Position numbers and translations under genes: made by a program
Assembly: GCA_022496185.1 (NCBI GenBank)
Contig: WTXG01000042.1
Location: 124,001-188,000 of the forward strand
Source of the DNA: Multifurca ochricompacta
Taxonomy: Eukaryota > Basidiomycota > Agaricomycetes > Russulales > Russulaceae
Direction of reading: 5' to 3'
Length of the DNA: 64,000 nt
Notes under the pieces: model-generated
Databases searched by the model: none
What the model was told of the DNA's origin: nothing
The model's input: only the letters and a program-made list of their open reading frames with translations
Shown here: positions 10,907-57,640 of the stretch, one piece after another
How positions within the stretch are numbered: position 1 is the first letter of the stretch
How the letters are laid out: each line of letters begins with the position of its first letter

Positions 10907-11661
10907 CGGAGTGGAGTGAGATATAACTTACAAAGCACCAGTACACCTTTTACATCTGTACACGTCCGCCCATAGATCCTTTTGTCTGTTTGTCGTTTTT
11001 TAGAGAGGGGGGTTCCATTCACATGATGGTTCTTTTTTTTTGGAAATTGAATTTATTGATGCACTTGCCTAAGTTGCATGGTTACTAGTCTATGTTCCAT
11101 GTCTGAATACACACAAGTCGTTGTATAGAGTATCATTGACTACACTGCTTCAAACCAATCAATCAACAATTCAATCTTGCATAGTAGCATCAAACTCACC
11201 CAGCATGCCAAAATACCAGCAATCAAATCAGAAACAGGTTGGCCACCAAAGGTGGTTGACTAAATCACAGAGGATTGCTTATTGGAGGCCCCATCATAAT
11301 TATCATTGAGCTGGATGAGAAGGAAGGTCCAATCATATTTATTGGTCAGAAAACCATGGAGAACCTTTTTCCGAGAAAAAGTAGGACATTGGAAACATGC
11401 ACTAGAAGCTAGGAGGATCTACTTGCTGAAGAATTCCACATGCATAAAGTAGTGGTGATCTCAGAAGAATAGCTGGAGGAAACAATGAGCTTGGCAGTTG
11501 AGATAAGTCAAGGCAGACTTACCAGCAACACATTGACTTGCTACTATAGCAGTGTAGTCTACAAATCCTGAAAGGGTTGACAAACTTGATGGGCTGATAG
11601 TAGTGGCTGGAACAACATGTTCCATGTTGACAACCATGTGCTTATCTTGTGATAGCATTGC
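10907..11661. other. CHO2 3' flank and unassigned decayed sequence
   Basis: The first 100-150 bp should hold the CHO2 3' UTR (T-rich run near 11030). From about 11,040 the base composition changes to AT-rich, repeat-like sequence with stops in all frames. No element end is recognised before the palindrome at 11662. Confidence 0.4.
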
Positions 11662-11719
11662 AGATGTGTGGAGAAGGAATGTGTCAATCCATGCACAAGT
11701 GCTTGCTTCAGTCTGGCAG

Positions 11720-11943
11720 TGTTGAGAAGTGCCTGAAGCCTAGTAATGGCACACTGTACATGGGTGGACTGGTTATGGCTAGGGCATAACACACAGAAAC
11801 CACCTTGAAGTTCCCAAGGCCATGTAGCTCAGTTGTTAGAGCACTGGACCTAGAATGTCTGGGGGTCTTGGGTTCAATCCCCAACATGGCTATACTTTTC
11901 CTGAGACTGAATGTCCCTTGATTAGGGTGCTGAAACCTCAACA
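11720..11943 (+). mobile_element. Small LTR-like element (224 bp) carrying a tRNA-like unit
   Basis: Ends are TGTTGAG...CTCAACA and the element is flanked by a 5-bp duplication GGCAG (11715-11719 and 11944-11948). The other arm of palindrome P1, near 12555-12565, keeps the empty site with one GGCAG (as CTGCC), so insertion is seen directly. TG..CA ends with a 5-bp duplication fit a solo LTR or a TRIM-type element. Inside at 11818-11892 lies a tRNA-like sequence with A and B boxes. Confidence 0.75.
11818..11892 (+). tRNA. tRNA-like RNA polymerase III unit (apparent anticodon AGA)
   Basis: A 7-bp acceptor stem pairs GGCCATG (11818-11824) with CATGGCT (11885-11891, one G-T). The D stem is GCTC/GAGC, the anticodon loop CTAGAAT gives AGA, and the T arm is TTGGG-TTCAATC-CCCAA. 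A box TAGCTCAGTTG and B box GGTTCAATCC are good. AGA would mean serine, but serine tRNAs have a long variable arm and this one is short, and the anticodon stem needs two wobble pairs. So a tRNA-derived sequence inside a mobile element is more likely than a working tRNA gene. Confidence 0.55.
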
Positions 11944-12660
11944 GGCAGAGTATGTGAGTAGCAGAAAGATTGACAGATTGTTACACACCATCCTAGGAAT
12001 GAGACTTTCCAACAAATGTAATTGATGATACAGGTTTGCAGAAGACCAAAGTTCTTTCTGTCCAAGGGAGGCAGTTGCTGCAATGTGTTCCTTGGAATTG
12101 GGCTTCAAATCAAGAATGCCCATACATATAATTTTCAACTTGGTCAAGTGCTCCATAGTCATACTGGAGAAGGTCAGAGACTGCAGGGAGTGAGTTAATG
12201 GAATACCATTTCATAGTTTGGGTCATACCTGAGGTTCTTCCAGCTTTCAACCCCAACAAAGAGAGCATCATGTCAACCTGCTACTTGAAACCTTCTGGCA
12301 TTCCATTAACTCACTCCCTGCAGTCTCTTACCTTCTCCAGTATGACTATGGAGCACTTGACTGAGTTGAAAATTATATGCACAGGCATTCTTGATCTGAA
12401 GCCCAATTCCAAGGAATGCATCATGGCAACTGCCTCCCTTGGCAGAACAAACTTTGGTCTTCCATGAACCTGTATCATCAATTACATTTGTTGGAAAGTC
12501 TCATTCCTAGGATGGTATGTAACAATCTGTCAATTTTTTTGCTACTCACATACTCTGCCAGACCAAAGCAAGTGCTTGTGCATGGATTGACACATTCCTT
12601 TTCCACACATCTGTAGTGATTGGCAGGGGTAACCCATGAAAATGTGTGCAAGTTCTTTAT

Positions 12661-28087: not shown

Positions 28088-29254
28088 ATGACGACCAGAC
28101 CGAATACCAGGCAGGCAAGGAGGGCCGCGGAGGAAGATATCGTTGAATCTCAGACCGGTCGACCCGAGCGAAGCCCCGAAGACAGACCAGCCAGAATATC
28201 TGGAAGAAACCCTGATGAACCACCACAAGGACCTCCCGCTCCAGGAATGGGAACGACGTACTCAGGAGGGCCCATGATGGGCGTACCACCACCTTTTTTG
28301 ACGGCGACCGAGATATTGCAATGGATTGGTTCGCTAAACTTGAACTATTCTTTAGCTTGAACGAAACAGTAGCCATGGTCCAAAACGAAAGGACGAGAGT
28401 TGCGTTCACATTAGGATTGCTCCGGGGACCACGAGTGGACCGCTGGGTGATAGACCAAATCAAGTGGCTGACCGATATCAAAGAAGGAAACATCCGGGTC
28501 CCATACATTTGGGACAAATTTAGACAAATATTCCAGGAAGCATGGGCCGACATGGCGGCTGGACAGAAAGCGCTGCGAGCGCTAGATCGCTTACAAATGA
28601 GAGATTCCAATATTGACGAATACATCGCCGAGTTTCGCACGCTGGCCACAAGGGCCGAACTCCATATTGACGACCCAGCCGCTCGGCAATTTTTTCACCG
28701 AGGTCTCCCCACACGGCTAGTTCAGACTATGCTCTTATTCGACCAACCTAAGACGTTTGACGAAGCAGCGGCCTCGGCTAGAAAGCACCATGCCAATTGG
28801 TTGTACAGCAAAGATGCCCTCGGCACACGGTCAACAACGAACACACCACCCCGAGGTAACAAGTTCACGTTTTATAAGAAACGCGAATCAGACCCACGCC
28901 CACCAAGTATCGACGTCATTAAAAAGGCAATTACAACCGAAGAGAAAGAACAGTATAAGAGAGATGGCCGATGCTTCGAGTGTGGCCGTCAAGGCATCTC
29001 GTCAGAGATTGCCCGAAGAAGAAGCCACGCATGAATAGCAACACCAATACCAGTAGCCCGGCTCGGACTGCGACGATCACCGAGATCCCCCAGACGACTG
29101 CGACGGTACCCACTAAAGCCCACGATCCGAAACCCGTGGAAGTCCCCGAAATAGATGTCGACGCCCTCGCCAACGCCCTAAGGTCCATGAACGACGACCA
29201 ACGCCTCGCTCTACAGAGTAAATTCAAGGGAGACGAGGATTTTTATATCGCTTG
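28088..29254 (+). pseudogene. Gypsy C Gag
   Basis: ATG at 28088 (MTTRPNTRQARRAAEE), though an open frame without ATG also extends upstream. Gag core: AKLELFFSLNETVAMVQNE, LRGPRVDRWVIDQIKW, LDRLQMRDSNIDEYIAEFRT, FHRGLPTRLVQTML. One base is lost in a T-run near 28290-28297, and a further break near 28985 scrambles the zinc knuckle (CFECG...; sister F keeps CFECGH). The end (DDQRLALQSKFKGDEDFYIA) stops at TGA; pol overlaps it in the -1 frame. Confidence 0.85.
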
Positions 29255-31110
29255 AATGACGCGGCCTTCATTCGAGCACTAATCTCACACCATGTATTTA
29301 GATCACCTATTAGAGCAATGACAGTAAATGTTCCTTTACATGGGGTGAAACCAATGGCCAAAGTAAATGCGCTCATAGACAGTGGAGCAACCGAAAATTT
29401 CATAAACTTCAAAACTGTGATCAAGTATCGACTTCCCACAAAACAACTAACCATCCCCAAGCGATTACAAAACGCCGATGGGTCTCCTAACGCCACCCGA
29501 CATATTACACAATGTGTCGATCTTCGCGTCATCACGAATGATAAAGAACAACGACATCGATTCTACGTCGCATCTATCAGGGCCGATGAGGCAATCCTCG
29601 GATACCCATGGTTTGCAGCGACCAATCCACAGATAAACTGGACCGAGGGACGCCTCACTGATAGCCTCAAATTCGAATTACCAATGGAACAGATTAAACG
29701 GCTTAATATAGCACAAGAATTAGCAATCAAAGCGAAAGACACGATCGAACGATCTTGGAATCAAATTGTTCCCTCTGAATATCACTGACATCAGAAAGTG
29801 TTCAGTGACCAAGAAGCCCAACGCTTCCCAGCTGAGAGAACCTGGGATCACAAAATTGATTTGAAACCGGATGCTCCGACAACGCTAGACTGTAAAATCT
29901 ATCCGCTGGGGCCGGGTGAACAAGATGCACTGAACAACTTTTTGGAAGAACACCTGCAGAAAGGCTACATTTCAGCCTCAAAGTCCCCGTATGCCTCCCC
30001 GTTTTTCTTCATCAAAAAGAAAGACGGAAAACTCCGGCCTGTTCAGGACTACCGAAAACTCAACAGCTGGACAATCCGTAACACCTATCCACTTCCCCTC
30101 ATACCGGAACTAATTGATCGCGTCCGCGGTAGCACACTGTTTACTAAAATGGACATCCGCTGGGGTTATAACAATATCCGGATTGTTCCGGAAGACCGAT
30201 GGAAAGCCGCGTTCAAGACTAACCGAGGCCTCTATGAGCCGAACGTTATGTTCTTCGGTCTGACAAATTCCCCCGCAACGTTCCAAACTATGATGAATGT
30301 AGAATTCAAAGAGGAACTTAATGAGCACGACGCAGAAGGAAAGGCTTGGTTCACAGTTTACATGGACGACATCTTAATTCATACCAATCACGATCTCGCA
30401 AATCATCGGGCTAAGGTGCATCGAATCCTCGACAAGCTCAGTCGTTTAGACCTCTATCTTAAACCGGAAAAGTGTGCGTTTGAACAGACCCGAATCGAAT
30501 ATCTAGGACTTATACTCGAAGCAAATCAAGTACACATGGATCCAGTAAAAGTCGAAGGGGTCGCCAATTGGAAGATCCCTACCACTGTTAAGGAAGTCCG
30601 ATCCTTCCTGGGATTCTGTCAATTTTACCGCGCTTTATTCAGGGATTCAGTAAATTAGCTGCACCTCTAAACGCCCTTACTAGTGCAAAACAGCCATGGA
30701 AATGGACAGACATCGAACAAAAAGCGTTCGACACTCTCAAACAACATGTAACTTCGCAACCAGTGCTCGCTCAGCCAAATTTTGAACAACCGTTCATAGT
30801 AGATACGGATGCCTCTGGGTATGCTGTGGGTGCCACCTTAAGTCAAAAGGACGATGCCGGACGCCTACATCCTATTGCGTATCTCTCGAAGACGTTAGAT
30901 GAAACTCAACGTAACTGGGACGTTTACGACCGCGAGTTGTTCACCATCATGGTAGCCCTTCGATTATGGCGCCAGTATCTCCTCGGCGCCCGCCACAAAG
31001 TACAAATTCGCACTGATCACAACAACCTCCAGTATTTCAAAGAACCGCAGAAGCTCAATCGACACAAGCGCGTTGGCTCCAGGAACTCGCAGATTTCGAT
31101 TTCTCCCTAG
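29255..31110 (+). pseudogene. Gypsy C protease, reverse transcriptase, RNase H
   Basis: Protease IDSGATENFINF, then ILGYPWFAATNPQINW. A TGA at 29786 stands where gypsy F has CGA. RT: FFIKKKDGKLRPVQDYRKLN, FTKMDIRWGYNNI, FFGLTNSPATFQ and VYMDDILIH (active site intact), LGLILEANQVHMDP. A frame break near 30630-30655 separates RT from RNase H (VDTDASGYAVGATLSQKD; YDRELFTIMVALR), and another near 31060 separates RNase H from integrase. Confidence 0.88.
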
Positions 31111-31136
31111 AGCATGTACCCGGGAAGCTTCACACG

Positions 31137-32549
31137 GTGGCGGATATGCTCTCGCGGCGACCCGACGCTGATCGAGGAAATGATGACAATGAAAAGGTTA
31201 CAATCCTCCCGAATGCACTGTTCCTTCGTACAATACAGACGGTGAAGCGCCCCTTTCCTTCCGATCTATTAGCACGACGAGAGATTCTCCACCGCTATCA
31301 CGATCATGTCCTAGCGGGACACCCTGGTATTGACAAGACTACGCGAAAGGTGCTAGCTGAATATGATGGGAACGACCTTAAGGCGTTTGTCCGGGAATAT
31401 GTCCAGGGTTGTGCCAAGTGTCAAGAGAATAAACCTCGGTTGACTAAGAAAGCCCCCCTTTTCCCATTTGACGTACCGGCCTCGGCCGGACCATTCCAAT
31501 ATGTCGCGATGGATCTTATTACGGATCTCCCTCCGTCTGGGCGCTACGATGCGGTGCTCACGATTGTTGACCAGGGCTGTTCGAAATCTGCGAAGTTTAT
31601 TCCCTGCTCGAAGGCCATCTCGGGCGAAGGAGTGGCTACTCTATACTATTGACATGTTTTCCCGCTCTTTGGCGTCCCTAAACGTATCATCTCCGACCGC
31701 GATCCACGGTTCACCTCACATTTCTCTCGCGAACTAGCCGCGTACTCGGTATTCAACAAACCTGTCAACCGCTTTCCACCCCCGCACAGACGGCGCAAGC
31801 GAACGGATGAACCTTTGGCTCGAACAATACCTCCGTCTTTGGCTAGGCGACGATCAACACCGATGGCCAGATTACCTACCACTAGCTGAATTTGTCCATA
31901 ACTCTTGGACACATGACAAATCTAAACTGTCACCGCACTCGCTAATACACGGTGTTTCGTTCGATTGGAACGGACAGCTGTCAGACTCTAGTGTTCCCCA
32001 AGTCGACTCCCGTCTCCGCGACCTCCAAGCTGCGCGCACCCATGCCGAACTAGCTCTCCAGACCCCCATGACTCGACCAACGCGCCCGCCGCTTGTTGTG
32101 GGTACCCACGTCTGGTTAGAGGGCAAGAATCTGAAGACCCACTTCCCGTCCGCCAAATTAGCCCCCCGTCGCTACGTCCCTTCCGCATTCTAGACTGTGT
32201 TTCCCCTGTGGCTTACTGCTTGTCCCTGCCTTCCCACATGAAAATTCACAACGTGTTTCATATTGACCTTCTATCTCCCTATCTGGAAACTGAAGCACAT
32301 GGCCCCAATTACCTCAGGCCCCCACCAGACCTTGTGAATCAGGAGGAAGAATATGAGGTTGCAGCTATTCTGAATCACCGGCTTTATGGGCGCTCTAAGA
32401 AGCTTCAGTTTCTGGTCAGCTGGGTGGATATCCTGCCAGTGAGAACTCCTGGGTTGATAGTTCCGACTGCCATGCCCCTGCGCTACTCAAACAATACTAT
32501 GATTCTATTCCCGGCGTCAGGGACGACACCGCCCTTAAGAAGGGGGTAA
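31137..32549 (+). pseudogene. Gypsy C integrase and chromodomain
   Basis: HHCC region (YHDHVLAGHPG, CAKCQENK), DDE core starting VAMDLITDLPPSGRYDAVL, and an out-of-frame stretch near 31730-31800 where the second Asp region has lost bases. TGA at 31650 stands where F has CGA (YYRHVFP). The tail reads VFHIDLLSPYLET and EEEYEVAAILNHR...LQFLVSWV, a chromodomain. Confidence 0.85.
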
Positions 32550-37040: not shown

Positions 37041-37541
37041 TGTGAAACAGGCATGTGCGCAGCATACTGACTGTAAAGTTAGCGGGTTAGGCTAGAGAAA
37101 GACAAGTTACTTCAGAGGTAGAAGAAACTCTATTATACTATACTACACACCTAGAGAAAGACAAGTTCTATATACAGAGTTAGTCTTAAAGTAGTGATGA
37201 TAGTAGAGAGGACGACTTACACTTCAGAGGTAGAAGAAACTCTGAAGTGTAAGAGACGAAACAGACACCCTTATATACTATCCAAGGGGTGGTCTGTGCA
37301 CTGGGAATAAGTCCTCAAGTGCCAGACAGAGTCCAAACAATAAACATGAGGGAGAAAGGCCATTGGCCACTACAGAAATCACATGTTACATAGTGCATCA
37401 GTCAGCTACTGCGGAATGTGAGAAAGAAAGTAATAAAGATATGGTAAAAGTCCGAAACTCCGGAATCTAATCTAATCTACAAAGTAGCTAATCTAATCAC
37501 CTGATGCCTGAAGCATCACCGAACATCTTCTGTGTTCAACA
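37041..37541 (-). repeat. Copia A 3' LTR
   Basis: TGTGAAACAGGC...TGTTCAACA as read on the plus strand. Partners are 43096-43596 and the LTR at 61172-61672. Contains the inverted pair ACTTCAGAG/CTCTGAAGT. Confidence 0.92.
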
Positions 37542-37812: not shown

Positions 37813-40800
37813 TCATTCCAGCATAAGTCCAAGTCCATTTACCATGGTTTCAAGCGATGCTCTTGGTAGAGGCTTAGTGAAGCCATCTGCCAGCATCTCA
37901 CCTGTGGGGGTACGCACTAGCTCTATTGTGCGTGATTCAATGTACCCCCTAATGGCATGGTACTTGATAGGTATATGCTTTGACCGCCTTCCTGTGACTG
38001 GGTTTAATGCCAAATCTACGGCTCCCTTGTTGTCACAGTGGAGTAATATAGGGGAGGATACCTCATACCCTAATTCCTCCATAAATGTCCTATACCACGC
38101 TGCCTGATTTGCAGCCTCAGAGAGGCTCATATATTCGGCCTCAGTGGTGGACTGTGCTACTGTTTTCTGCTTTCTGGAACACCATGAAATGGCAGCATTT
38201 GCCAAGAAAAACACATAGCCTGAGGTAGAGCGGCAGTCCTCTTGATCTCCCCATGAGGAATCTGCAAAGCCATGAAGGCCACTCTCCCCAGTCCCTCCAG
38301 AATACCGCAACTTGTAGTCTTTTGTACTATTAAGATACTTTAAGACATATTTTGCAAGTCGCATGTGATCTTGAGAGGGGTTGGAAGTGTATTGACTAAG
38401 GTGTGCAACAGCAAAACTGATATCTGGTCTGCTTCCAATCTGCACCCATAGCAGAGACCCCATCAGCTGTTGGTACTTCTTTATTTCAGAAGTAGATGCC
38501 TGGCCTTCAAATTTGACCAGATGAACATCAGCGCCAGAGGGAAGAGGAGTATATACTCGGTTGGAATCCCTCATCCCAAACTTCTCAATAATAGATAAAA
38601 CGTAGGCTGCTTGGTCAATCTCCAGTGTCTTGTTAGGACGATCCCTGGTGATGTTAACTCCAAGGTACGACTGGATTTCTCCCAAGTCAGTCATCTCATA
38701 TCGATTAGATAGAGCTGACTTCAGCCACGTTATCTTATCATTGGAAGACCCGAGTATAGTAATGTCATCTACATAGAGAATGACATAAAGTGAATCATCC
38801 TCCTCCTTTTGATGATACACGTATACTCCTGCATCAGAGTACATCCGAGTAAAGCCTAGTTCATTAAGAACTCCATGGAATTGAAGATTCCATGCTCGGG
38901 AGGCTTGTTTGAGGCCATATAATGCTTTTTGTAGCCTGCAAACTTTGGACTCTTGACCAGTAACGACGAAACCAACCGGTTGCTCCATATATATTTCTTC
39001 ATCCAGATCGCCATGTAGGAATGCTGATTTAACATCCATCTGGTGGATTTCCCAATCCTCTAGTGTAGCTAGTGCTAGTAATAGTCTTAATGACTCAAAT
39101 CTGGCGACTGGAGAAAAAGTTTCGTCGAAGTCCACCCCTTCTACTTGGGTGAAACCTTTTGCCACAAGCCTTGCACGAAACCGTCCATCTGGTTTCAACT
39201 TGAAAACCCATTTTGACTTGACAGCCTTTCTTCCCTTAGGAAGATCCTCAAGGCGCCACACATTAAGTTTATCTAAGGCATCTATTTCATATCTACATGC
39301 CTCAAGCCATTCATTGGCATTGTCAGACTCCATTGCCTCCTGAAAAGTCAGGGGGTCTCTATAAGAGACACCTGCGGCATTTAGCAATTCCATATGTCCA
39401 AGTCTGGAAGAACCCTGCATGAACTCAGCATTATCCTCATTATAAAATCGAGGATTCATGCGGCATGAACGTCTGGGATGGGCAGTATCAAGATCTAGAT
39501 CTTCCTGCACAGCCCTGTCACGTTGCTGAGAGCGTGGACTTTCCCTAGTAAATACTGGTTGGGAAATTTTGCCAACATTCTTTTTAGACTGTCTTTTGGC
39601 ATGGGTTCTCTGAGGGAGTTCAGAGGGTTCCATGATTTGGGATGGTGGTGTCTGATAGATGGTTTGATCGTGTGTGTCAAGCTCGTTTTCAGGTGTGGTA
39701 GGCTCAGGATTTATTTGAGGAGGTTCCACTACCTCCTGTTCCTCAACCTCGGCGTCCTTGTCTTCAGGAGCCTGAGGAACTGTGGCTATTACTGGTTGAG
39801 GCTGGACAGGCCTCTCAACTTCTAAGACAAAAGGTGTAACTTTTTCCTTTTGTTTTCCCTTGCTGTCCTTCGCAAGGTTGGATGGAAAGGACCCTTCATC
39901 AAATGTCACATCTCTTGACAATACGAAGGATCGGGTATGCATATCCCAAAGAAGATATCCTTTAGAGTGGGGTGCATACCCAACAAAGACTGTCTCCCTG
40001 GCTTTGTGATCCAGTTTATGTCTTTTGTCCTCTGGGACAGTGTAGTAGGCTAAGCAGCCAAATATTTTAAAGTAAGAAACATCTGGAATGTCCCCATCCA
40101 GAAGTTCTAGCGGTGTCCTCCACTTATTAGAGCGGATAGGCATTCTATTGTATATGTGACAGGCTGTTCGCACTGCACATTCCCAGAAACCAAGGGAAAG
40201 ACCAGCATGATGCAGCATACTGGTGGCCTTTTCCATGATGGTTCTGTTGAACCTTTCAGCCCTTCCGTTCTGTTGTGGGGAATATGGCATTGTCAATTTA
40301 TGCTCTATGCCAGCCTTCTCAAGTATTGACTTCAGCTCCCTATTGACAAATTCGCCACCTCAGTCTGTGTGTAAGGTCTTTATTTTCTTGTCTGTTTTAT
40401 TTTCCAAGAATGCCTTAATATTACTGAAGACCGATGTGAAATCACTTTTCGCTTTCATAGCAACAACTAGAGCTGTCCTGCTAAAGTCGTCTATGAAAGT
40501 GGCGAAGTATAGGTTCCCTTGAATTGAAGTGGATTGCAAAGGACCAACTAGGTCACTATGAATGACTTCCAAGGGTGCTGAAGCTCTCTTTTGAGAGGGA
40601 GGGAATGGAAGACGGTGTGATTTTCCCATTTCACAGCCATAACACAGCTTGTCTTCCACTTGGCTATTATCAATACTAAGGCCTTTTACAGCCTTAGGAG
40701 CATGTCTTTTGAGGGCCTCTTTTGACATATGACCCATGCGCAAATGCCAGGTATCAAGGCTACTTGATGCAGATTTGTGGGAAGCAGTATTTAAATTCTG

Positions 40801-42171
40801 CATAGTTTTCCCAAAGACCCAATAGAGTCCCATAGCCTTGACACCTTCTGCTATAATTGCATTATTGTACTTTATTTTGACCTCAGATGGAGAGAACTCC
40901 ACTGAACCGCCTTTGTCTGTGATGCAGCTTGTCGACAGTATTCTTTCACTGCCGGGCATATAGAAGACGTTATTTAACTCCAACTCGTAATTATTGCGGG
41001 TATGGAGGATAACTTTGCCTGTTCCTTCGACTTGGACTATGGATCCATCACCAATTGTCACCGAGTGCCCCTTGTGAGGGTAGTACTCAGAGAAATCTTC
41101 TAAGTATGGTGTAAAATGGGTGGTGGCTCCGCTGTCCATCATCCAAGGATTGCTGCCATCATCGACTTCTTGCGTATGTTCAGTCATCATATAAAGTGAA
41201 ATGTGAGGTGTCTCATGCACCTCCTGTATTCTGCCACTACCATTAACTATGGTAGCTACTTGTGTGGAGTTATTATGTACACTGGGGCCTTGCCCCTTCC
41301 TCTTGTTGCCCTTTTTGCCTGCATCAGCATTGGCTCTGTCCTGTTTCCTTTGCCGACATTCATTTGCCTTGTGGCCTGGCTTCTGGCAATAGAAGCAGGT
41401 GACATCATTGGACGATGATGCACCTGCAGGAGGTGGCGTGAAAGATACTTTTTTGTTTTTGTTTTTGTTGACATGGGCTGCCTTGTTAAGGGCAGCCCCA
41501 ACACCACTTCCTGCGGGGCCGGCAAGTTGGCTTTCCTCATTTAGGAACCTTTGCACAAGGTCCTGAGGGGAAAGGTGGTCAGGAGGACCTGACGCCAGGA
41601 TTGAGCCAGCAATGGCTGAGTAGGATGGAGGTAGGGATTGGAGCAATATAAAGCTCAACTGGAGGTCAGAGATCTCCATCCCATTTTCCTTTAGAGTACT
41701 CCTCACATCCAACACACACTGCAACTGGGGTCTGAATAGTTTTCCTTCTTCCAAGCGGAAGGAGGATACAGAACACCACAAGTTGTAGGTGGCCATGCTA
41801 CCTACTGAGCCATAGAGCGATTCCAAACACTCATACTTGGCATTGACAGAGGGGTAAGTTCTGTCAGAGGCAATTTGGGAGTATGTTTCTGGCGATGTGA
41901 CCATCACCAGAACTCCCATGAGGACTTCCTCAACTCTATTCCACTCCAAGTACATTGGCTCTGACCAAAGCGCAAAGCGCTTGGCATAGTCCTCATCCTT
42001 TTCTCCATCTTCTGGCTTGGGAGCATTCAGGAACTCAGGGGCATCGTGTGTGATGTGCCTCTTCATCCCATTGATCCTCAGCAGGGCTGTGAAGGACACC
42101 GACCACTGCTGCCAGTTGGAGCCATCAAGCTTGTCAAACTTGAAGGTAGGGGGGAAGATGATGGAAGACAT
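37813..42171 (-). pseudogene. Copia A Gag-Pol polyprotein, one stop
   Basis: ATG at 42171 (MSSIIFPPTFKF). In order: gag (LDGSNWQQWSVSF), zinc knuckle CFYCQKPGHKANEC, protease MMDSGATTHFTPYL, GAG-pre-integrase (WHLRMGHMSKEAL; CYGCEMGKSH), integrase DDE core (HSDLVGPL; FIDDFSR; YSPQQNGRAERFNRTIM), RT (WVFKLKPDGRFRARLVAKGF; MDVKSAFLHGDLDEEIYMEQ; active site ILYVDDITI), and RNase H (GFADSSWGD; STTEAEYMSLSEA; LLHCDNKGA). Stop at 37813. The only break is a TGA at 40360-40362 in the HTD-GGE motif of integrase, where arginine (CGA) is likely. Apart from it about 1,450 residues are open; one reversal or read-through would give a complete polyprotein. Confidence 0.92.
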
Positions 42172-43095
42172 TTGAGATGATTTTAAAAAAGTTGATCCTG
42201 GATCCAAGGAGCAGTTAGAACCAGTTGTCCAGGTCTCATTGAAGAGGGCCCATCCATTCTGTGGTGCTATGCTTCAGAACTTAAAAAAGTCCTGCCTCTG
42301 ATGTGCGACTTCTAAGTAGTATAGTAGGCTATCTAGCGCCATCTACAACAAGTCCTAAGCCCACATCAGGGGGACATTGTGTAAATAGATGGGGAGTCAT
42401 GTCATGGAGGAGCCAACCGCAAGTTCCACTAGAGACAAAGGGTATAGAGCCCTTCCTCTAGTGCTGGTGGTGGAGTCCATGATTAAGCCCTAGATGATTG
42501 GGGCCATGACTATAGTAGACTATTAGGTTTCCTCTGGTTGGGGCGAACCCCCAATGAAAGCAGCGGGTACTTCTGCCCAGAGACAAAACCCTCTAGCTAC
42601 TGTGTATATACTATAGTAGTTCAAGCCTACTTGTATCGAGCCCAAGCGTCATGGGAGTGACTACCCATGCCTTGTTCTAGACCCTAAACTCTACCAGCAG
42701 GTCGCTAAACCTGGCTTACGGATCGAGCCAAGCATTGACTGAACCTATAGCCCCAAGCCTTCTGGGCAAGTGGCCTACTAAGTCTATGGATGGGATGAAA
42801 ACCCAGCTATAACTATGAATACTATTTACTTAGAGCGCACACGAGGAACTCAAGGTGTTTCACCCGCTTAGGGTCCCTCATCACCTCTTGCAAGAATCCC
42901 CTGAGGGACTAGCCAGACAGATCAAGGTGGGCACATGAAGCGCACCACCTTGTGGACAGTTAAGGGCAAGGGAAAGAAATCGAAGCTCACTGTAAGACTG
43001 ATTGGGAAAGACGAAGTCTTGAAGCTGTGAGCTTTGAAGAAAGTGTTGGACTGATCAAAGTGAAGTCAGTTAATGTGTGCCCAGGGCCCATAACC
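42172..43095 (-). other. Copia A untranslated leader and primer site
   Basis: About 920 bp between 5' LTR and gag. GGTTATGGGCCC (complement of 43084-43095) follows the LTR directly, the same tRNA-iMet-type primer site as in copia-1. The leader has no long frame and is shared in part with copia B up to about 42706. Confidence 0.75.
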
Positions 43096-43596
43096 TGTGA
43101 AACAGGCATGTGCGCAGCATACTGACTGTAAAGTTAGCGGGTTAGGCTAGAGAAAGACAAGTTACTTCAGAGGTAGAAGAAACTCTATTATACTATACTA
43201 CACACCTAGAGAAAGACAAGTTCTATATACAGAGTTAGTCTTAAGGTAGTGATGATAGTAGAGAGGACGACTTACACTTCAGAGGTAGAAGAAACTCTGA
43301 AGTGTAAGAGATGAAACAGACACCCTTATATACTATCCAAGGGGTGGTCTGTGCACTGGGAATAAGTCCTCAAGTGCCGGACAGAGTCCAAACAATAAAC
43401 ATGAGGGAGAAAGGCCATTGGCCACTACAGAAATCACATGTTACATAGTGCATCAGTCAGCTACTGCGGAATGTGAGAAAGAAAGTAATAAAGATATGGT
43501 AAAAGTCCGAAACTCCGGAATCTAATCTAATCTACAAAGTAGCTAATCTAATCACCTGATGCCTGAAGCATCACCGAACATCTTCTGTGTTCAACA
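43096..43596 (-). repeat. Copia A 5' LTR
   Basis: Partner of 37041-37541. A TATATA run near 43326 lies on the transcribed side. Followed on the right by CCACC. Confidence 0.92.
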
Positions 43597-47770: not shown

Positions 47771-50700
47771 TCATCCCTGACGCCTGGGAAGAGAATCATA
47801 GTACCGTTTGATCAGTGTAGGGGCATGACAGTCAGAGCTATCAACCCAAGAGTTCTCACTGGCAGGATAGCCAACCCAGCTGACCAGAAATTGGAGCTTC
47901 TTAGAACGCCCATGGAGCCGGTGATTAAGGACAGCTGCCACTTCATATTCTTCTTCCTGATTAACAAGCTCTGGTGGGGGCCTGAGATAATTGGGGCCAT
48001 GTGCAACAGTTTCTAGATAGGGAGATAGAAGATCAATATGAAACACATCATGGATATTCATGTGGGAAGGCAGGGACAAGCGATACGCCACAGGGGAGAT
48101 ACAGTTCAGAATGCGGAAGGGGCCGTAACGGTGGGGGGCTAACTTAGTCGATGGGAAGTGGGTCTTCAGGTTGCACCCCTCCAACCAAACCTGAGTGCCC
48201 ACTGCGAGAGGAGGTCGCGTCAGGCGACTCATGGGGGTTCGAAGCGCTAGTTCGGCACGGGTACGTGCAGCCTGAAGGTCGTGGAGACGGGTGTCGACTT
48301 GGGGAACGCTAGACTTGGATAATTGTCCGTTCCAATCGAACGAAACGCCGTGTATTAGCGCATGCAGAGATAGTTTGGATTTGTCGTGTGTCCATGAATT
48401 ATGGACGAATTCGGCTAATGGCAAGTAGTCTGGCCATTGAGATTGATCGTCACCAAGCCAAAGGCAGAGGTATTGTTTGAGCCATAGATTCATACGTTCG
48501 CTCGAACCATCCGTTCGGGGGTGAAAAGTGGTCGACAGGTTTTGTTGGATACCCAGTACACGGGCAAGTTCACGGGAAAAGTGTGAGGTAAACCAGGGAT
48601 CCCGATCAGAGATGATACATCGTGGGACACCAAAGGTTGGAAAAACATGTCGGTAATACAGGGTAGCAATCCCTTCCCCTGTGATATCTTTTGAGCAGGG
48701 AATGAATTTTGCTGATTTGGAGCAGCCTTGGTCCACGATTGTGAGTACCGCATTGTAACGTCCCGAGGGCGGGAGATCTGTGATAAGATCCATCGCGACA
48801 TACTGAAAGGGGCCGGCCGAGGCCGGTACATCGAATGGAAACAAAGGGGCTTTTTTAGTTAACTTTGGTTTATTTTCTTGACATGTTGCGCAACCCTGAA
48901 CATATTCTCGGACGAATTCCCTAAGACTGATGCCGTCGTAATCGGCTAACACCTTTCGTGTAGTCTTTTCAATACCCGGGTGTCCCGCGAGGACATGATT
49001 GTGATAGCATTGGAGAATGTCCCATCGTGCTAGCAGGTCAGACGGGAAGGGGTGTTTAACTGTTTGTAGCGTTCGGAGAAATAATTTGTTGGGGAGGATT
49101 ACGACCTTTTCATTGTCTTCGGTTCCGCGATCAGCGTCAGGCCGTCGTGAGAGCATATCTGCCATGGTGTGTAATTTTCCAGGGACGTGTTCCAGAGAGA
49201 AATCAAAATCAGCCAATTCCTGAAGCCAACGAGCCTGTCTTCAGTTGAGTTTTTGTGGTTCTCGGAAATACTGTAAGTTATTATGGTCTGTGCAGACCTG
49301 AACTTTGTGTTGGGCTCCAAGGAGATATTGACGCCAGACACGAAAGGCTACCATAATCGCGAATAATTCCCTATCATATATGTCCCAATTCCTCTGAGTC
49401 TCATCAAGCATTTTCGAGAGGTATGCGATAGGATGTAAGTGTCCCACAGGGTCCTTCTGGCTTAACGTGGCGCCAACGGCATATCCAGAAGCATCTGTAT
49501 CTACGATAAACGGCTGCTCAAAATTCGGTTGTGCGAGCACCAGTTGAGAGGTTACACGTTCTCTGAGTGTATCGAAGGCATGCTGTTCCACTGTCATCCA
49601 CTTCCATGGATTCTTGGCACTGGTTAGGGCATTCAGAGGGGCGGCGATCTTGCTAAAGCCCTGAATGAAGTGACGATAGAACTGGCAGAACCCTAAGAAC
49701 GATCGGACTTCTTTCACGGTTGTGGGAACCTTCCAGGTGGCGACGCCTTCCACTTTGACTGGATCCATATGAACTTGATTCGCCTCCAAGATGAGCCCAA
49801 GGTATTCTATTCGCGTTTGTTCGAAGGCACACTTTTCTGGTTTGAGGTATAGATCTAGGCAATTAAGTTTATCCAGAACACAATGGACCTTGGATCGGTG
49901 ATTGTCAAGATCGTTATCTGTGTGAATAAGGATGTCGTCCATATAGACTGTAAACCACGCCTTTCCTGTTGCGTCGTGGTCATTGAGTTCATCTCTGAAT
50001 TCGGCATTCATCATGGTCTGGAATGTCGCTGGGGAATTGGTTAAGCCAAAGAACATCACATTGGGTTCAAAGAGACCCCGATTAGTTTTGAACGCGGCTT
50101 TCCAGCAGTCTTCAGGTATGATACGGATATTGTTGTAGCCCCAGCGAACGTCCATCTTTGTGAACAAAGTACTTCCTCGGACTCGATCGATAAGTTCTGG
50201 GATAAGCGGGAGAGGATAAGTGTTCCGGATCGTCCAGTTATTCAGTTTACGATAATCTTGTACGGGTCTAAGTTTTCCGTCCTTCTTTTTAATAAAGAAG
50301 AATGAAGATGCGTATGGTGATTTCGATGCTGAAATATAGCCCTTTTTCAAATGTTCGTCGAGGAAAGCGTTCAACGCGTCTTGTTCTCCCAGTCTGAGTG
50401 GATAGATCTTACAATCCATTGAGGCCGGAGCGTCTGCTTTTAGTTCGATTTTATGGTCCCAGGGTCGTTCTGCGGGGAAGTGTTGAGCTTCCTGGTCACT
50501 GAATACTTTCTGGTGTCGGTGATACTCTGAAGGGACAATCTGATCCCAGGATCGTTCTATCTTATCTTTAGCTTTGATTGCTAATTCTTGCGCGATGTTG
50601 AGTCACTTTATCTGTTCGGTAGGTAGACTGAATGTGACCTTGTCCATAAGGTGTCCTGCTGTCCAATCTATGTGTGGATTATTTGCTGTGAACCACGGAT

Positions 50701-51054
50701 ATCCTAGAATCACTTCATCCGTTCCAATTGACACAACATAAAATCTGTGTTGTTGCGCCTTGTCGTTGGTGACGACACAGAGATCGACGCATCGTGTGAT
50801 ATAACGCGTGGCATTAGGTGATCCGTCTGCATTTTGTAATCATTTTGGGATTGTCAGACACTTTGTGGGGAGTCTGTGTTTGATTACTGTTTTATAATTA
50901 ATAAAGTTTTCAGTGGCTCCACTGTCGACAAGAGCTTCTATGTTGGCCTCTTTTTTCACTCCATGTAATGGGACAGAGATTGTCATTGCTCTAATAGGTG
51001 ATCTAAATACATGGTGTGAGATTAACGCTCGAATGAAGGCCGCATCATTCAAGC
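47771..51054 (-). pseudogene. Gypsy F Pol polyprotein
   Basis: Protease VDSGATENFINY, RT FFIKKKDGKLRPVQDYRKLN, FFGLTNSPATFQ, VYMDDILIH (active site intact), RNase H VDTDASGYAVGATLSQKD and YDRELFAIMVAF, integrase finger (YHNHVLAGHPG; CATCQENK), DDE core (VAMDLITDLPPSGRYNAVL; SDRDPWFTSHF; HPRTDGSSERMN), and chromodomain (EEEYEVAAVLNHR; FLVSWVGYPASENSWV). Stop at 47771. Breaks are TGA at 50840, 50603 and 49241; gypsy C has CGA at the first and third. Pol starts in the -1 frame over the gag stop. Confidence 0.92.
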
Positions 51055-52221
51055 GATATAAAAATCCTCATCCCCTTTGAATTTACTCTGAAGGGCGAGG
51101 CGTTGATCATTGTTCATGGATCGAAGGGCGTTGGCGAGCACGTCGACGTCTATTTCGGTCATCTCTACAGGTTTCTGTGCGTGAGCTTTAGTAGGTGCTG
51201 TTGTCGTTGTCGAAGGGACTTCTGTGATCGTGGTGGTCCGAGCCGGGCTACTGGCGCTGGCATTGGTATTAATGCGCGGCTTCTTATTCGGGCAGTCCCT
51301 GACGAGATGTCCTCAGTGCCCACACTCAAAGCATCGGCCATCCTTCCTATACTGCTCTTTCTCTTCTGTCGTAATTGCCTTTTTGATGACGTCGGCTCCT
51401 TGTGAGTGTGGGTCCGACTCGCGTTTCTTATAAAACGTAAATTTGTTGCCTCGGGGTGGCGTGTTTGTTGTCGACCGCGTGCCGAGGGCGTCTTTGCTAT
51501 ACAACCAATTTGCATGGTGCTTCCTGGCCGAGGCCGCTGCTTCATCAAACGTCTTAGGTTGGTCAAATAGGAGCATAGTCTGAACCAATCGCGTGGGGAG
51601 GCCTCGGTGAAAGAATTGCCGAGCGGCTGGGTCATCAATATGGAGTTCGGCCCTTGTAGCCAGCATGCGAAACTCGGCGATGTATTCGTCGATATTAGAA
51701 TCTCTCATTTGTAAGCGATCTAACGCTCGCAGCGCTTTCTGTCCAGCCGCCACGTTGGCCCATGCATCTCGGAATATTTGTCTGAATTTGTCCCAAATGT
51801 ATGGGACTCGGATGTTTCCCTCTTTGATGTCAGTCAACCATTTGATCTGGTCTATCACCCATCGGTCTACTCGGGGTCCTCGTAGCAATCCTAGTGTGAA
51901 CGCAACTCTCGTTCTTTCGTTCTGAACCATGGCTACTGTTTCATTGAGGCTGAAGAATAGTTCCAGTTTGGCCAGCCAGTCCATGGCTATGTCTCGATCT
52001 CCGTCGAAGAAGGGTGGTGGTACGCCCATCATGGGCCCTCCCGAGTACGTTGCCCCTCCTCCTGGAGCGGGGGGTCCTTGCGGTGGTTCATCAGGGTTTC
52101 TTCCTGTCATTCTGGTAATTGGCCTATCTTCGGGGCTTCGTTCGGGTCGACCGGTCTGAGATTCAACGATCTCTTCCTCCGCAGCCCTCCTTGCCTGTCT
52201 AGTATTCGGTCTGGTCGTCAT
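51051..52221 (-). pseudogene. Gypsy F Gag, one stop
   Basis: ATG at 52221 (MTTRPNTRQARRAAEE), with an open but ATG-less frame further upstream to about 52440. Gag core as in C (AKLELFFSLNETVAMVQNE; LRGPRVDRWVIDQIKW; FRQIFRDAWANVAAGQKAL). Zinc knuckle CFECGH-GHLVRDC holds a TGA at 51313 in place of arginine. It ends DDQRLALQSKFKGDEDFYIA (with N for D in places) at TGA 51051-51053. Confidence 0.9.
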
Positions 52222-52669
52222 CGTGTGTGGGGTAGGTACTTCGGTGCCTTCGTCGTTCGGGGTGGGGCTGTCTGCTGCCGCAAGAAGAGCGAAGCGGTTA
52301 TGGAAGTCAATAGGTAAGTCGCCGTGCGATTGTGGTTCTAATTCATCTGTTAGATATCGGAGTGGGGAGTTGTCTTCAAGAGACGCTTCCTCAGACGTTG
52401 GGGATCGGGGATCACGCACTGAGTAAGACGTCGCGCTGTCGGGATACGGGCAAGGGACGCAGTGTCGTCTCCTTGCGGTTCAGGTGAGTGTTTCGAGTGT
52501 TCGTTTATGGATATTACTGATCGCGCTGGTATCTAAACAGCTTCGGGGATCGTTGTTAATTCTGTGGTCGGGGTTTCGGGTTCGGGTGTCAGGGCAAGGG
52601 ACGCGTCGTCGTTGCCTTGTACGTTCGGTGAGTTCTGGTGTCCTCTTGTTTGAAAGAAGTCTGTTCTAA

Positions 52670-53194
52670 TGTCACAGTTAGGTGCAGGAACTGTGTCGAG
52701 GTCGAACAAGAGGAAGCAAATTCAGTCAAGTCTCAAGGTCACAAAGGGTCAAGTCTGGTTCAAGCCCACAACAAGGTCAAAGGGCACGCGCGCGAGGGTC
52801 GAAGTCGACAGCAGAGACACTCAGTCCTGCAACAAGTTCAAGAGGGTCGAAGGCTCTCCAAGTCGCGTCTTAGAGAGTTCAAGTGGGGTTCTTTCTGGGA
52901 GAGTTCGATGAAGTCACAAGCACCTTGGATTGGAACACAAGAGAACAGACTTAGGTCTGTCTCTCTACTTTACTGCACTTTAAATACAGGTGGGTTTAGC
53001 TATGTCATAGTAGGTAGAAGGTTCTAGTACTATGATGTATGATCTAGTGGTTGCACAGTAGAACTAGCTAGAACCAAGGAGAAAGTGGAGGGGTTGAGCC
53101 CTCAGTAAGCAACAGTAAAGTAGTGTTTCAAATGAAAGTCCATTTCTTTGTCAGTCAACCTCATGTCACCTTGGCCAGTGTAGAATCCGTCACA
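52670..53194 (-). repeat. Gypsy F 5' LTR with self-priming site
   Basis: On the minus strand AAGTCTGTTCT follows a TTTAAA box, and AGAACAGACTT begins two bases after the LTR end (complement of about 52657-52667), as in gypsy C. Followed on the right by GTTGA. Confidence 0.9.
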
Positions 53195-54190
53195 GTTGAC
53201 ACCACTTGCAGTTGAGGGGCAGTTCCAGCTGATGTGGTACTTACTGTCGCAGCGCCAGCAAGTTTCCCCACGTGGGTTCTCATTCAAGTGCGGCATCTCA
53301 AGATGGTTTGGCAGCAGCGTTGGGGCGGCGCCCAATGCTCGAGGGGGGAGGGGGCGCGCATAGGTGTCGGCATACCTTTCAGCAATCGTTTGATAGGCGT
53401 CCCCTGCCTCCAACCTCTTTCTAATCTCCACAATCTCTTGTTCCAACTGAAACATCCCATTGGTCAACTTTGCCATCATCTTTGCATGTTCTTTATATTG
53501 TTGGCTCAATGTCCTCCGCAGGGTGATGCTTTTCCGCAGCCTCATGACTTCTGCTTTGAGGCGCGGAAGTCTCATGTTGTTTATCACCTCTTTGATTGCA
53601 AAGGCACAACAGTCTTCTGCCACGAGGTGGCCCAGCTGCTTGTCGGTTAGCGTGTGATGGAGCCAGCCTGTATACCTCTCCTCCAAGTAGACGGGAGCCC
53701 CATAAACCGGTCCATCTTTCTTCATGCATCCCGCCACATCCATTCCTCCATTGGTGTAGTAGATGTATTTTGCGATGGCTGTGGAACCATCGGCCATGGT
53801 GATCTCCAGGGGGAAGTACATGGATGAATTGGGGTTGTTGGGGATGAAAGGAAATTCGGGGGCTTCATCGTTGATCTCCCCGTTGAGCAGGTCGTTAGGG
53901 TGAGGCTCTTCACAGTGGGTGAAATCGTCGTTCAGGTTTGGGGACTGATTCTTGACATGGGCTTCTGCAGCTTCATAGTCAATGGGGGAGGAGGGACAAG
54001 TGGAGGGATGAGCGGAAGGGAAATTTTCGATGACGGTCATTGGGGAAGTGAAGGTGTCAACAGCGGCAGAGGCGGCGATGAAGGACATGTTGGATTGTTC
54101 AGTGGTAGTAATTCGCTGGGGTGGCATATACTGGGGAGTCTGATGGGGTCTGGGGTTGTTCTTTTAACGGTTCTTGGGCACTTCTGGGTG

Positions 54191-55669
54191 TCAGGTATGG
54201 AACTCCGCGATAAGGACCGGGGCAGAGATATCTCCGGCTGGTTCCCATGAGTTGTCTGAGGCTGGGAATCCCTTCCACTTAATTAGGTAGTACAGCTTGC
54301 GCCCTCGGCCTTGTCGCTTCGAATCTAGAATGCGTTCTATTTCCCACTCTTCTTCTCCGTTGATAAGGTCAGGTGGGGGTCTCGGGAAGTTTTCCCCATG
54401 CAGAGACGTTTCTTTGTAAGGTGTAAGCAATCTGGCATGGAAGACTGGATGAATGCGCCATGCAGGGGGGAGTTTGAGTTCATATGACACATCTGACAGC
54501 TTCCTTGTTATCTTGAAGGGTCCATGACGTTGGGGCGCTAACTTGGCTGTTGGATGTGACATGTGAATGTTCTTCCCCTCCAACCATACCAGGTCATTGG
54601 TTCGATAAGGTGTGAACCTTGTGGGTTTCTCTGCCAGGGTCCTTTGCGCCTTCAACAGGTTTTCATTGGCCGATTTCCTGATCTCTTCCCATTGGTTGAT
54701 ACACTGTGTGGCTGAAGGGACGTTCATTGGCTTTCCCATCCATGTGGCTCGGGGTGTCCATCCCATGATAAGTGAGAATGGGGAGTGTTTCGTGGTACCA
54801 TTGGGCCAAGAGTTGTGTGCGAATTCTGCCGTTGCAAGCCAGTCAGCCCAGTCATCCTGTCGTCTGTTGCACCAGAACCGAAGATACTGTTCGAGCCACT
54901 GGTTTGTTCTTTCTGACTGTCCATCTGTCTGTGGGTGATATGCTGTGGAGATGTTTTGGGTTACATTCAGCATTTTGCAGAGCACCTTGGCAAATGCGGA
55001 TGTGAAACGTGGGTCACAGTCTGAAATGATCTTTTCAGGGAGGCCATAGTGTCTGTAGACGTGATCTAGGTAGAGTTTGGCCACTCCCTCTGCCGTGACA
55101 GACTCATTGCATGGTATGAACAGTGCTGCTTTCGAACAGTCGTGGTCCGTGATGGTCAGGATGGAGTCGAAGCCTCTGGAGGTGGGGAGTTTGACAATAA
55201 AATCCATGGCAATAGTCTGGAATGGTTGTGATGCCGTTGGTGTGATTGGGAATGGTGCTGGTGGGTGCAGGTGCATGTTTACTTTGTTAGCCTGGCAGTC
55301 TGCACATCCCTTCACATACTCCTCTATGTCCTTCTTCATATTTGGCCACCAATAGTCTCATTTAGCTAGGGTGTATGTGTTGGCAATACCTGGGTGTCCT
55401 GCAGAGGGAAGATCATGGTGAAAATGGATCACCCCCCTCTTAATGTTGTTGCCACCGGTGACAACGAGACGATCCCCCTCTTTCCACCATAGGCCGTCGA
55501 TCTTCTTTAGGTTATGTGCCTCTGCCCATGACTCGCATAATTGTTGGTTCATGTTTTGCGACACCTGGGCCCACAGGTCCATGTCATGGAGACTGATGAC
55601 CACTGTCTTCGCGAAGACCTCTTCAGGGAGTACTGTGATGTCATTGTTGTCCTCTTCTCCATTGTTCAA
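54191..55669 (-). pseudogene. Gypsy G integrase and chromodomain
   Basis: Linker with HFHHDLPSAGHPG, then YWWPNMKKDIEEYV and CADCQANK (HHCC finger), DDE core (IAMDFIVKLPTSRGFDSIL; SDCDPRFTSAF; HPQTDGQSERTNQWLEQ), tail VWLEGKNIHM, FHARLLTPYKE, and chromodomain GEEEWEIERILDSK with YYLIKWKGFPASDNSWEPA. Stop at 54191. A TGA at 55358 stands before DYWWP, where arginine is likely. Confidence 0.88.
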
Positions 55670-55678
55670 ATCTGGTCG

Positions 55679-57099
55679 TCATGACAGGGCATCCGCCCAT
55701 GCATTACAACTGCCTGCAATATGCTTTAACACAAAATTATATTCTTCCAGTTCCAGGACTTCGTGGGCGACCCATCGACTGATCTTATGGGGTTCTTTCC
55801 AGTAGAGTAGATTAGAGTGATCAGTGTGAATGACGGTTTTATGGGGGGTTCCCGCTAGATATGGTCGCCAGTGTCATAGTGCCTTGACAATGGCCAGTAG
55901 TTCTCTGTCCCAGATATCGTAATTTCGTTCTGCTGGCGAGAATGTCTCGGAGTAGAAGGCAACTGGGTGAAGGAGCCCAGCTGTGTCTCGTTGGTTTAGT
56001 ACAGTGCCATTGGCGAAATGGGACGCATCCACTTCCAGTTCAAAGGGCTTCTCCAGATTGGGTTGTAAGAGAACTGGTTCTGAGCCAACAATATTCCGAA
56101 TCCGTTCGAAAGCTCGTTGTTGTTTGTCCACCCAATGCCAGGGTACATCCTTTTTCAATAGTCCATTCAATGGTTGGGCGATGCCTGAAAACCCCCGGAT
56201 GAATCACCGATAGAAGTTGCAAAACCCAATGAAGGATCACACATCTTTGATGCATGTGGGTACAGGCCACTCCCAAATTCCTTGTACTTTCACCGGATCC
56301 ATCCGCACATGTCCCCTTCCAGGATAACTCCCAGATACTCCACACTTGACTGTTCAAATGAACATTTGGCTGGTTTGAGGTACAGGTCATGTTCGTGCAG
56401 GATGTCTAGCACCTGGTGCACTCGTCTCCGATGATGAGCCAAATTGTCAGTGGTGGCCACTAGTATGTTGTCCATGTACACCACCACTTTGCCTGTAAGA
56501 ATAAGGTCGCAGAAAATGTGGTTCATCATTGCTTGGAAAGTGGCAGGCGAGTTGGTAAGACCAAAGAACATGACGTTTGGTTCAAAGAGTCCCTGATTGG
56601 TCTTAAAAGCTGCTTTACACTGGTCTCCTTCTTTGATCTGAATGTTATTGTAACCCCAACGGACGTCCATTTTGGAGAACAGGGATTTATCCCTCATGGT
56701 GTCAATGAGCTCCAAGATGAGCGGCAAGGGGTAGGCATTCTTTACAGTGTAGGCATTTATCCGTCGGTAATCCTGAACAGGTCGAAGTTTGCCGTCCTTC
56801 TTCTTGATAAAGAAGAATGGCGACGCATAGGGTGATTTTGATGGACAAATGTACCCCTTTGCAAGATGTTCCTCAAGGAATGCTGTGAGCGCGGTCTGTT
56901 CTGCCTGTGACAACGGGTAGATTTTACAGTTGATTGCTGATGGGGTGTTGGATATGAAGTCAATGGCATGGTCCCATGGCCGTGCTGGTGGAAAACGTTG
57001 GGACTCCTCCTCGGAGAATACCTTCCAATGTCGATGATACTCCTTTGGTACTACCTCCTCAAACGTCTTTTCCGTGTGCCCCTCAACTGCTTTTTGCAC
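55679..57099 (-). pseudogene. Gypsy G reverse transcriptase and RNase H, active site changed
   Basis: RT: FSEEESQRFPPARPWDH, FFIKKKDGKLRPVQDYRRIN, FSKMDVRWGYNNIQI, FFGLTNSPATFQ, then VVVYMDNIL: the second Asp of the YMDD active site is Asn (codon AAC at 56467-56469). A frameshift near 56310 separates RT from the thumb. RNase H: VDASHFANGTVLNQRD, YDIWDRELLAIVKAL. TGA stops at 56237, 56204, 55874 and 55679 all sit where arginine is expected (DV-SFIGF, FYR-FI, KAL-HW, ALS-RPD). Confidence 0.88.
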
Positions 57100-57640
57100 A
57101 GTTCCGATGCTTTGGTAGCAAAACAGTAGCCTGGGTCTTCACCTTCTCTTTCTATTCTACGCACCACTGAATGTCGCACAGCATAGTCGTATCCTATCGA
57201 TGTGATGAGGACAGGGTAGAAATCTTTGTCCATGGTCGCATCACTCCAATTGATCTTTGGTTCGAAGGCAGCAAGCCAGGGATATCCCAAAACTAGATCT
57301 TCATCACCCAGATTGGTGACTAAAAAGTGGATAATCTTCGTTCTTTCCCCCACTTGGACTTTGAGGTTGGTGTAGTGTGTGATTTTTCCTGCTTGGTTGG
57401 CTGTTCCATCAATATTCCAGATATTCTTTTCCTGGGGAAGTGCCAGCATTCCTAGTCCCATGGTTCTTGCCATTCATGGACTGATGAAGTTATCTGTGGC
57501 TCCTGAATCTATCAGGATGTCATGGTCGGCCGTCCTCTGTGTAGTTTCGAAATGTACTGGTATTTTCAAAGACTTGAAGCGACTAGTATACACAGAGGTT
57601 ACATGTAGTGCTCGTGCCCAGGCCGATGGGTTTGAGCCAA
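57100..57640 (-). pseudogene. Gypsy G protease
   Basis: Starts in the -1 frame over the gag end (GFLIGSNPSAWARALH), retropepsin motif ILIDSGATDNFISP, then LVLGYPWLAAFEPKINWSD. A TGA at 57474 follows FISP where arginine is expected. A frame change near 57060-57100 precedes RT. Confidence 0.82.

Follow-up and report, generated by a model that had tools for sequence, protein, structure and literature searches.

A tRNA-bearing solo LTR in Multifurca ochricompacta, probably derived from a Helenus-type TRIM mobilised by Copia

The closest described relatives of the element considered here belong to Helenus (TRIMp3), a group of tRNA-bearing TRIMs (Kojima 2024, PMC10886601). As given in the main text of that paper, the autonomous partner of Helenus is deduced from primer sites and a single internal region in common, and nothing points to a partner for Cassandra, a plant TRIM that likewise carries an RNA polymerase III gene in its LTR and that would, by analogy, work in the same way. 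Apart from Helenus, no paper on tRNA-bearing LTRs was seen in the titles and abstract beginnings of the literature on TRIMs, Cassandra, template-switching, and basidiomycete LTR elements. A third relevant system is the set of template-switch insertions of cereals, for which the parts of the paper by Sabot and Schulman (PMC1950507) drawn on here use flanking duplications to separate hybrids formed before integration from those formed after it.

The sequence analysed here (the window) is a 64-kb stretch of the M. ochricompacta genome. The 224-bp unit that it contains is probably a solo LTR of a Helenus-type TRIM, that is, of a non-coding element of ∼540 bp that has a tRNA-derived RNA polymerase III promoter in its LTRs and would be mobilised by Copia.

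The solo LTR of the window and its complete relatives

The features of the unit and of its insertion site are as follows:
11715..11719, no strand: left target-site duplication, GGCAG
11720..11943, + strand: solo LTR of TRIM family A, 224 bp, with the same ends in many copies
11720..11726, + strand: LTR 5' end, TGTTGAG, which pairs with CTCAACA at 11937-11943
11720..11817, + strand: putative U3, taken as the part upstream of the tRNA-like start
11818..11892, + strand: tRNA-like sequence of 75 nt (ARAGORN, Rfam), putative R region
11825..11835, + strand: box A, TAGCTCAGTTG (TAGCTCAGTGG in most other copies)
11844..11862, + strand: anticodon arm of 19 nt (6-bp stem, 7-nt loop), compared with the canonical 17
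11871..11881, + strand: box B, GGTTCAATCCC
11896..11899, + strand: T4 run, putative weak RNA polymerase III terminator
11900..11943, + strand: putative U5
11937..11943, + strand: LTR 3' end, CTCAACA
11944..11948, no strand: right target-site duplication, GGCAG
12552..12613, - strand: other palindrome arm, spanning the empty site

The sequence bears out the original prediction in its TG..CA ends, its 7-bp inversion of the termini (TGTTGAG/CTCAACA), and its duplication of GGCAG. The prediction that the other palindrome arm keeps the empty site also held: once both arms are brought into one orientation, the partner shows a single, uninterrupted GGCAG and lacks the insert. In the inverted-repeat comparison of the window, 12552-12613 pairs with 11661-11722 at 90%, and 11944-12559 is itself an inverted repeat (84%). 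The LTR copy of the window has a second place in the assembly, C412:2231-2454, with near-identical flanks. Positions 11720-11943 are a complete solo LTR and not a whole element, because complete elements with two LTRs occur elsewhere in the genome. A neighbouring gene is similar to phosphatidylethanolamine methyltransferase (its one hit that carries an organism name, a weak one, comes from Athelia and hints faintly at Agaricomycetes), and the window is rich in LTR retrotransposons, with reading frames at 28219-32549 and 47771-59104 that by eye are of the Gypsy gag-pol type.

A search for further copies, the check suggested in the original prediction, showed that copies with the same ends are numerous. 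Searching the 53.8-Mb assembly with the 224-bp unit gave at least 42 scored matches, of which 15 cover positions 1-224 at 96-100% identity and 2 cover them at 90-92%, the rest being shorter; 40 of the 163 first-look candidates were scored, so the copy number is a lower bound. Three related LTR families could be distinguished: A, which includes the copy in the window (222-224 bp), and B and C (222 bp each). In all three, paired LTRs enclose a short internal region, which bears out the description of the unit as a miniature LTR-like element; the complete two-LTR elements are non-coding and span 523-543 bp. Ten complete pairs measure 541-543 bp in family A and 534-535 bp in families B and C, with internal regions of 97 bp and 90-91 bp, respectively, and all ten have a 5-bp duplication. 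Four more pairs, of 523-535 bp, are also duplicated without exception (CAAAC, GGATA, TGATA, and TCCAG); one family-B element totals 523 bp and therefore has a shorter internal region. Before the 3' LTR lie short G-rich ends (GCAGGGGGCA, GTGGGGGCG, and GTAGGGGCG), a candidate polypurine tract.

Identical 5-bp flanks were found at 27 of 28 distinct complete insertions (18 solo LTRs and 10 pairs; the exception is L052) and at none of 756 crossed-flank controls. Family A contributes 11 of 11 distinct solo insertions and 2 of 2 paired ones. That set excluded ten half elements, namely four that were later recognised as pairs, two chimeras, the two arms of one palindrome, and two with an interrupted 3' LTR that were left unscored. 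Seven further insertions (the four additional pairs, the palindrome on C122, and the two hybrids described below) are all duplicated, bringing the overall count to 34 of 35 complete insertions scored. The two LTRs of a pair differ at 0-6 of 222-223 positions and are identical in 4 of the 10 pairs, which makes recent activity likely, above all in family C.

Several copies have unusual structures or contexts. At C122:34950-35700 (L093) a 596-bp family-B insertion is palindromic, with an LTR 3' end at either extremity and CACAT in both flanks; it is probably an aberrant reverse-transcription product that was integrated. Two distinct insertions, at positions 3001-3078 of L042 and 2928-3005 of L043 (the same site in L044), begin with the first 78 bp of family A (90%) and continue with ∼200 bp of other sequence that has no tRNA-like part, constituting an LTR variant. 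The same insertion with the same flanks is found on the contig pairs L015/L016, L018/L022, L026/L027, L031/L032, L036/L039, L040/L041, and L043/L044, as if these were two haplotypes or recent segmental copies. A repeat starting AGTGATTGGCAGGGGTAACCC, or its complement, lies at the breaks of several TRIM copies (L023, L053, and L045) and at that of the palindrome of the window near 12614; in L023, TRIM positions 170-178 are present on both sides of this repeat.

The T4 run and the putative transcript

The presence of boxes A and B suggests that the TRIM is transcribed by RNA polymerase III. Recruited through these boxes, the polymerase would start near the 5' end of the tRNA-like sequence in the 5' LTR, would often pass the single T4 run of that LTR, and would stop at the T4 run of the 3' LTR. 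The tRNA-like sequence (∼80 nt) would then form an R region repeated at both ends of the RNA. The T-run is strikingly uniform. Exactly four Ts stand between Cs in 67 of 69 copies, and the remaining two are cut by insertions at this point; the 69 copies, some of which are twins of one insertion on two contigs, were kept from 87 matches after dropping 14 that were incomplete or ran off the end of a locus and 4 with the same context. All 49 complete LTRs of families A-C have CTTTTC together with box A and box B, in keeping with the expectation that the tRNA-like part would be shared across the family, and none of the 49 has five Ts in its 3' part.

A single T4 would be a weak stop in many fungi. 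Among 20 host tRNA loci, for each of which 12-24 bases were read, 15 show at least five Ts in a row. The T4 run of the LTR would suit a leaky terminator, as would be needed if both LTRs carry one and the same terminator. Two observations count against this model: the T4 run of the 5' LTR could stop the polymerase before the rest of the element is copied, and the other 5 of the 20 host tRNA loci likewise have no run longer than T4, including that of the initiator tRNA-Met with its two T4 runs (two of these five loci are AT-rich and might lie outside the nuclear genome). The model is accordingly best seen as a testable proposal.

Alternatively, a U3 promoter could direct RNA polymerase II to make the full-length RNA of the same TRIM, with RNA polymerase III producing only short tRNA-like RNAs that end at T4. 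This is unlikely but is the strongest of the competing explanations. It would account for the position of the T4 run, a few bases 3' of the tRNA-like part in both LTRs, and family B has, by eye, a TATATAA ∼30 nt upstream of the tRNA-like start, a motif that either polymerase could use. However, family A lacks a clear TATA at the equivalent place (by eye), and between family A and the other two U3 is poorly conserved while boxes A and B are kept.

Primer sites, the Copia family, and the Copia-TRIM hybrids

The initiator tRNA-Met gene of the host lies at C24:473840-473965 and has A1, U72, and a CAT anticodon, which is followed by a 9-nt insert that was read as an intron. It was found with a pattern built from the TRIM primer site and was read by eye and with a script; ARAGORN called no tRNA in either of the stretches tested, this locus included. 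A second match of the same pattern looks like chance, the one place that matched a separate initiator tRNA-Met pattern turned out on reading to contain no tRNA, and another such pattern had no match.

In families B and C, the primer site TGGTAGCAGCAC is fully complementary over 12 nt to the initiator tRNA-Met 3' end and its CCA, and 16 of the first 17 nt match. The primer site of family A is weaker, with 13 of the first 15 nt matching. A pattern joining the LTR end to the primer site was found at 17 places (0 in the control), all of which have a TRIM internal region and one of which is the chimera on C12. An extended primer-site pattern occurred 15 times, always in a TRIM or chimera, but 14 times in its control as well, which makes this count alone meaningless. 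The window contains one near-match, as chance predicts.

Genome searches found no autonomous element sharing LTR or internal sequence with the TRIMs. The internal region of family A matched only its own two elements, and that of family C gave 18 matches at TRIM or chimera places (one of them, C598:91906, was judged solely by the adjoining LTR match). The window itself contains a Copia element of the family that recurs in the chimeras:
37041..37541, - strand: 3' LTR of the Copia element, with the duplication GGTGG on both sides of the element
37813..42273, - strand: Copia reading frames (gag, integrase, and RVT_2)
43082..43095, - strand: Copia primer site, 14 of 14 nt complementary to the anticodon arm of initiator tRNA-Met without the intron
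43096..43596, - strand: 5' LTR of the Copia element, ends read by eye

Its LTRs are 99.4% identical, and its assignment to Copia is based on RVT_2, a copia-type gag, and an integrase core domain (rve_3 over the cut-off, rve just under it). The Copia primer site still matches 13 of 14 nt when the intron is retained, so splicing is suggested but not proved. Both kinds of initiator tRNA-Met primer site are recorded among fungal Helenus and Copia elements in the main text of Kojima (PMC10886601).

Two hybrids, on C85 and C12, join the 3' part of a family-B TRIM to the 5' part of this Copia family. Each starts with the Copia 5' LTR, leader, and gag, and finishes with the end of a family-B LTR; over the stretches compared, the Copia parts are 88.6-94.5% identical to the family in the window. 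They are independent insertions, each having its own perfect 5-bp duplication (TGGGT and CTGTA). In the C85 hybrid, an 11-nt stretch, TGGTAGCAGCA, leads from the Copia gag to the TRIM primer site; it also occurs in the gag of two other Copia copies (the copy in the window differs there). The C12 hybrid is joined where the tRNA-like part ends on its 3' side, and the two sequences have no clear bases in common there. A complete family-B TRIM on C290 (L096 with L061) that is nested in Copia gag and flanked by the GGATA duplication is an ordinary nested insertion.

As the duplications embrace the whole of each hybrid, the joint most likely preceded integration. Recombination between integrated elements, which would make the hybrids uninformative about the partner, appears improbable. 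TRIM copies do sit in Copia DNA, as on C290, and the left LTRs of the hybrids were read apart from 109 bases (C85) and 169 bases (C12) between the LTR start and the next stretch. Nevertheless, each hybrid has unlike outer LTRs and yet identical 5-bp flanks, and equal 5-mers were found by chance at random places of the loci used in only 141 of 125,993 comparisons (∼1 in 890 per locus). The hybrids indicate that the cDNAs of Copia and TRIM came together ahead of integration, with a single integrase acting on the two ends. The case for Copia as the partner is fairly strong for family B, to which both chimeras are confined.

With Copia as the probable partner, the remaining steps of the life cycle could be as follows. 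The TRIM RNA would enter the virus-like particles of a Copia family, where initiator tRNA-Met would prime reverse transcription, with R used for the first strand transfer; Copia integrase would insert the product, and recombination between its LTRs would later leave solo LTRs such as that in the window. The one tRNA would serve both elements, the TRIM binding its 3' end and Copia its anticodon arm. In the C85 hybrid, the Copia plus strand may have replaced the plus-strand strong-stop DNA of the TRIM in the second strand transfer. The model as a whole, in which the hybrids reveal the Copia partner, a leaky T4 run makes the tRNA-like part the R region, and TRIM and Copia share particles and initiator tRNA-Met, is put forward tentatively, with its chances of being right in every part a little short of even. 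Counting against the broader reading of the unit as a Helenus-type TRIM moved by Copia are the poorer fit of the family-A primer site to initiator tRNA-Met, the restriction of the hybrids to family B, the shortness of the candidate polypurine tract, and the searches that found no autonomous element with LTR or internal sequence in common.

Conservation of the tRNA-like part and comparison with known systems

The tRNA-like fold with A and B boxes that had been predicted was recovered by two programs: ARAGORN calls tRNA-Ser(aga) at 11818-11892, and the Rfam tRNA model scores 50.9 bits (E = 5.7e-8), the sole match above the gathering threshold in the 64 kb. Comparison of single LTRs of families A and B gives identical columns at 64 of 75 positions in the tRNA-like part, 35 of 96 upstream, and 25 of 60 downstream; for the more closely related B and C, the counts are 73 of 76, 57 of 79, and 47 of 61. 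In an alignment of 39 copies (39 of 41 distinct sequences, two insertion-cut ones being excluded), conservation is 98% in box A, 99% in box B, 88% in the acceptor stem, 84% in the anticodon arm, and 70% in the bases just 5' of that arm. The first G of the D-loop GG, present in most copies, is T in the window copy and its C412 twin and C in L018. Two A-like insertions, present at three places, lack the tRNA-like part, and truncation affects many of the other matches. In families B and C, variation in the tRNA-like part is by eye mostly CG to CA or TG, resembling an effect of cytosine methylation. Covariation in the fold is not above that of shuffled controls and gives no sign of selection on structure as such. 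Judged from the sequences, the conservation looks like that of a promoter in which boxes A and B are maintained, and not like that of a working tRNA.

A cargo tRNA gene that functions in the host and adds to its tRNA supply is a very improbable reading, although both ARAGORN and Rfam accept the tRNA-like part as a tRNA. The anticodon arm exceeds the canonical 17 nt by two, and one anticodon-stem pair is broken in 17 of the 36 rows that have letters there. The anticodon loop differs between families, and the serine call is made without the long variable arm. The nearest of the 17 host tRNAs sampled is tRNA-Ile(AAT), at 56-59 identical columns of 77-80, and not a tRNA-Ser. A tRNA-derived SINE or MITE would also be short, non-coding, and multicopy, but this reading is refuted by the paired LTRs and can be set aside, the primer site, the fixed 5-bp duplications, and the lack of a 3' tail in the flanks read also speaking against it. 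Of at least 62 Rfam tRNA matches in the genome, 31 lie in these LTRs (by matching of places; 63 of 1851 first-look candidates were scored), and tRNA gene counts are therefore inflated in such genomes.

The original comparison with plant Cassandra stands as an apt analogy, but the closer published match is Helenus, as described in the main text of Kojima 2024 (PMC10886601). Cassandra carries 5S rRNA, whereas the LTR of the window carries a tRNA-like sequence in which Rfam finds only tRNA; a reading of the unit as Cassandra itself was rejected on this ground. With Helenus, as that text presents it, the families described here share the TRIM organisation, the tRNA-derived sequence with boxes A and B in the LTRs, and the primer site. 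Helenus elements are likewise mostly shorter than 1000 bp, with several families per genome, and those of fungi have the same 5-bp duplications, initiator tRNA-Met primers, and affinity to Copia. Families A-C fit Helenus in the features described there (PMC10886601).

What goes beyond the known Helenus kind is the evidence on the Copia partner and the T4 model. The main text of PMC10886601 gives no T-run ("TTTT" is absent from it, and "terminator" appears once, about Cassandra) and no Copia hybrids ("chimer" and "template switch" are absent). The model of a single T4 run with the tRNA-like part as R makes a clear prediction for the RNA ends. The hybrids, in turn, resemble the cereal insertions of Sabot and Schulman (2007, PMC1950507), which, in the parts of that paper drawn on here, are likewise fused, flanked by 5-bp duplications, and inferred to have been joined before integration. 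The cereal hybrids, however, unite close relatives with matching outer LTRs, whereas those described here combine a Copia LTR with a different, TRIM LTR. Such duplication-flanked hybrids show directly, at the level of the genome, that there is evidence for Copia particles able to accommodate both elements and for one integrase able to use the ends of both.
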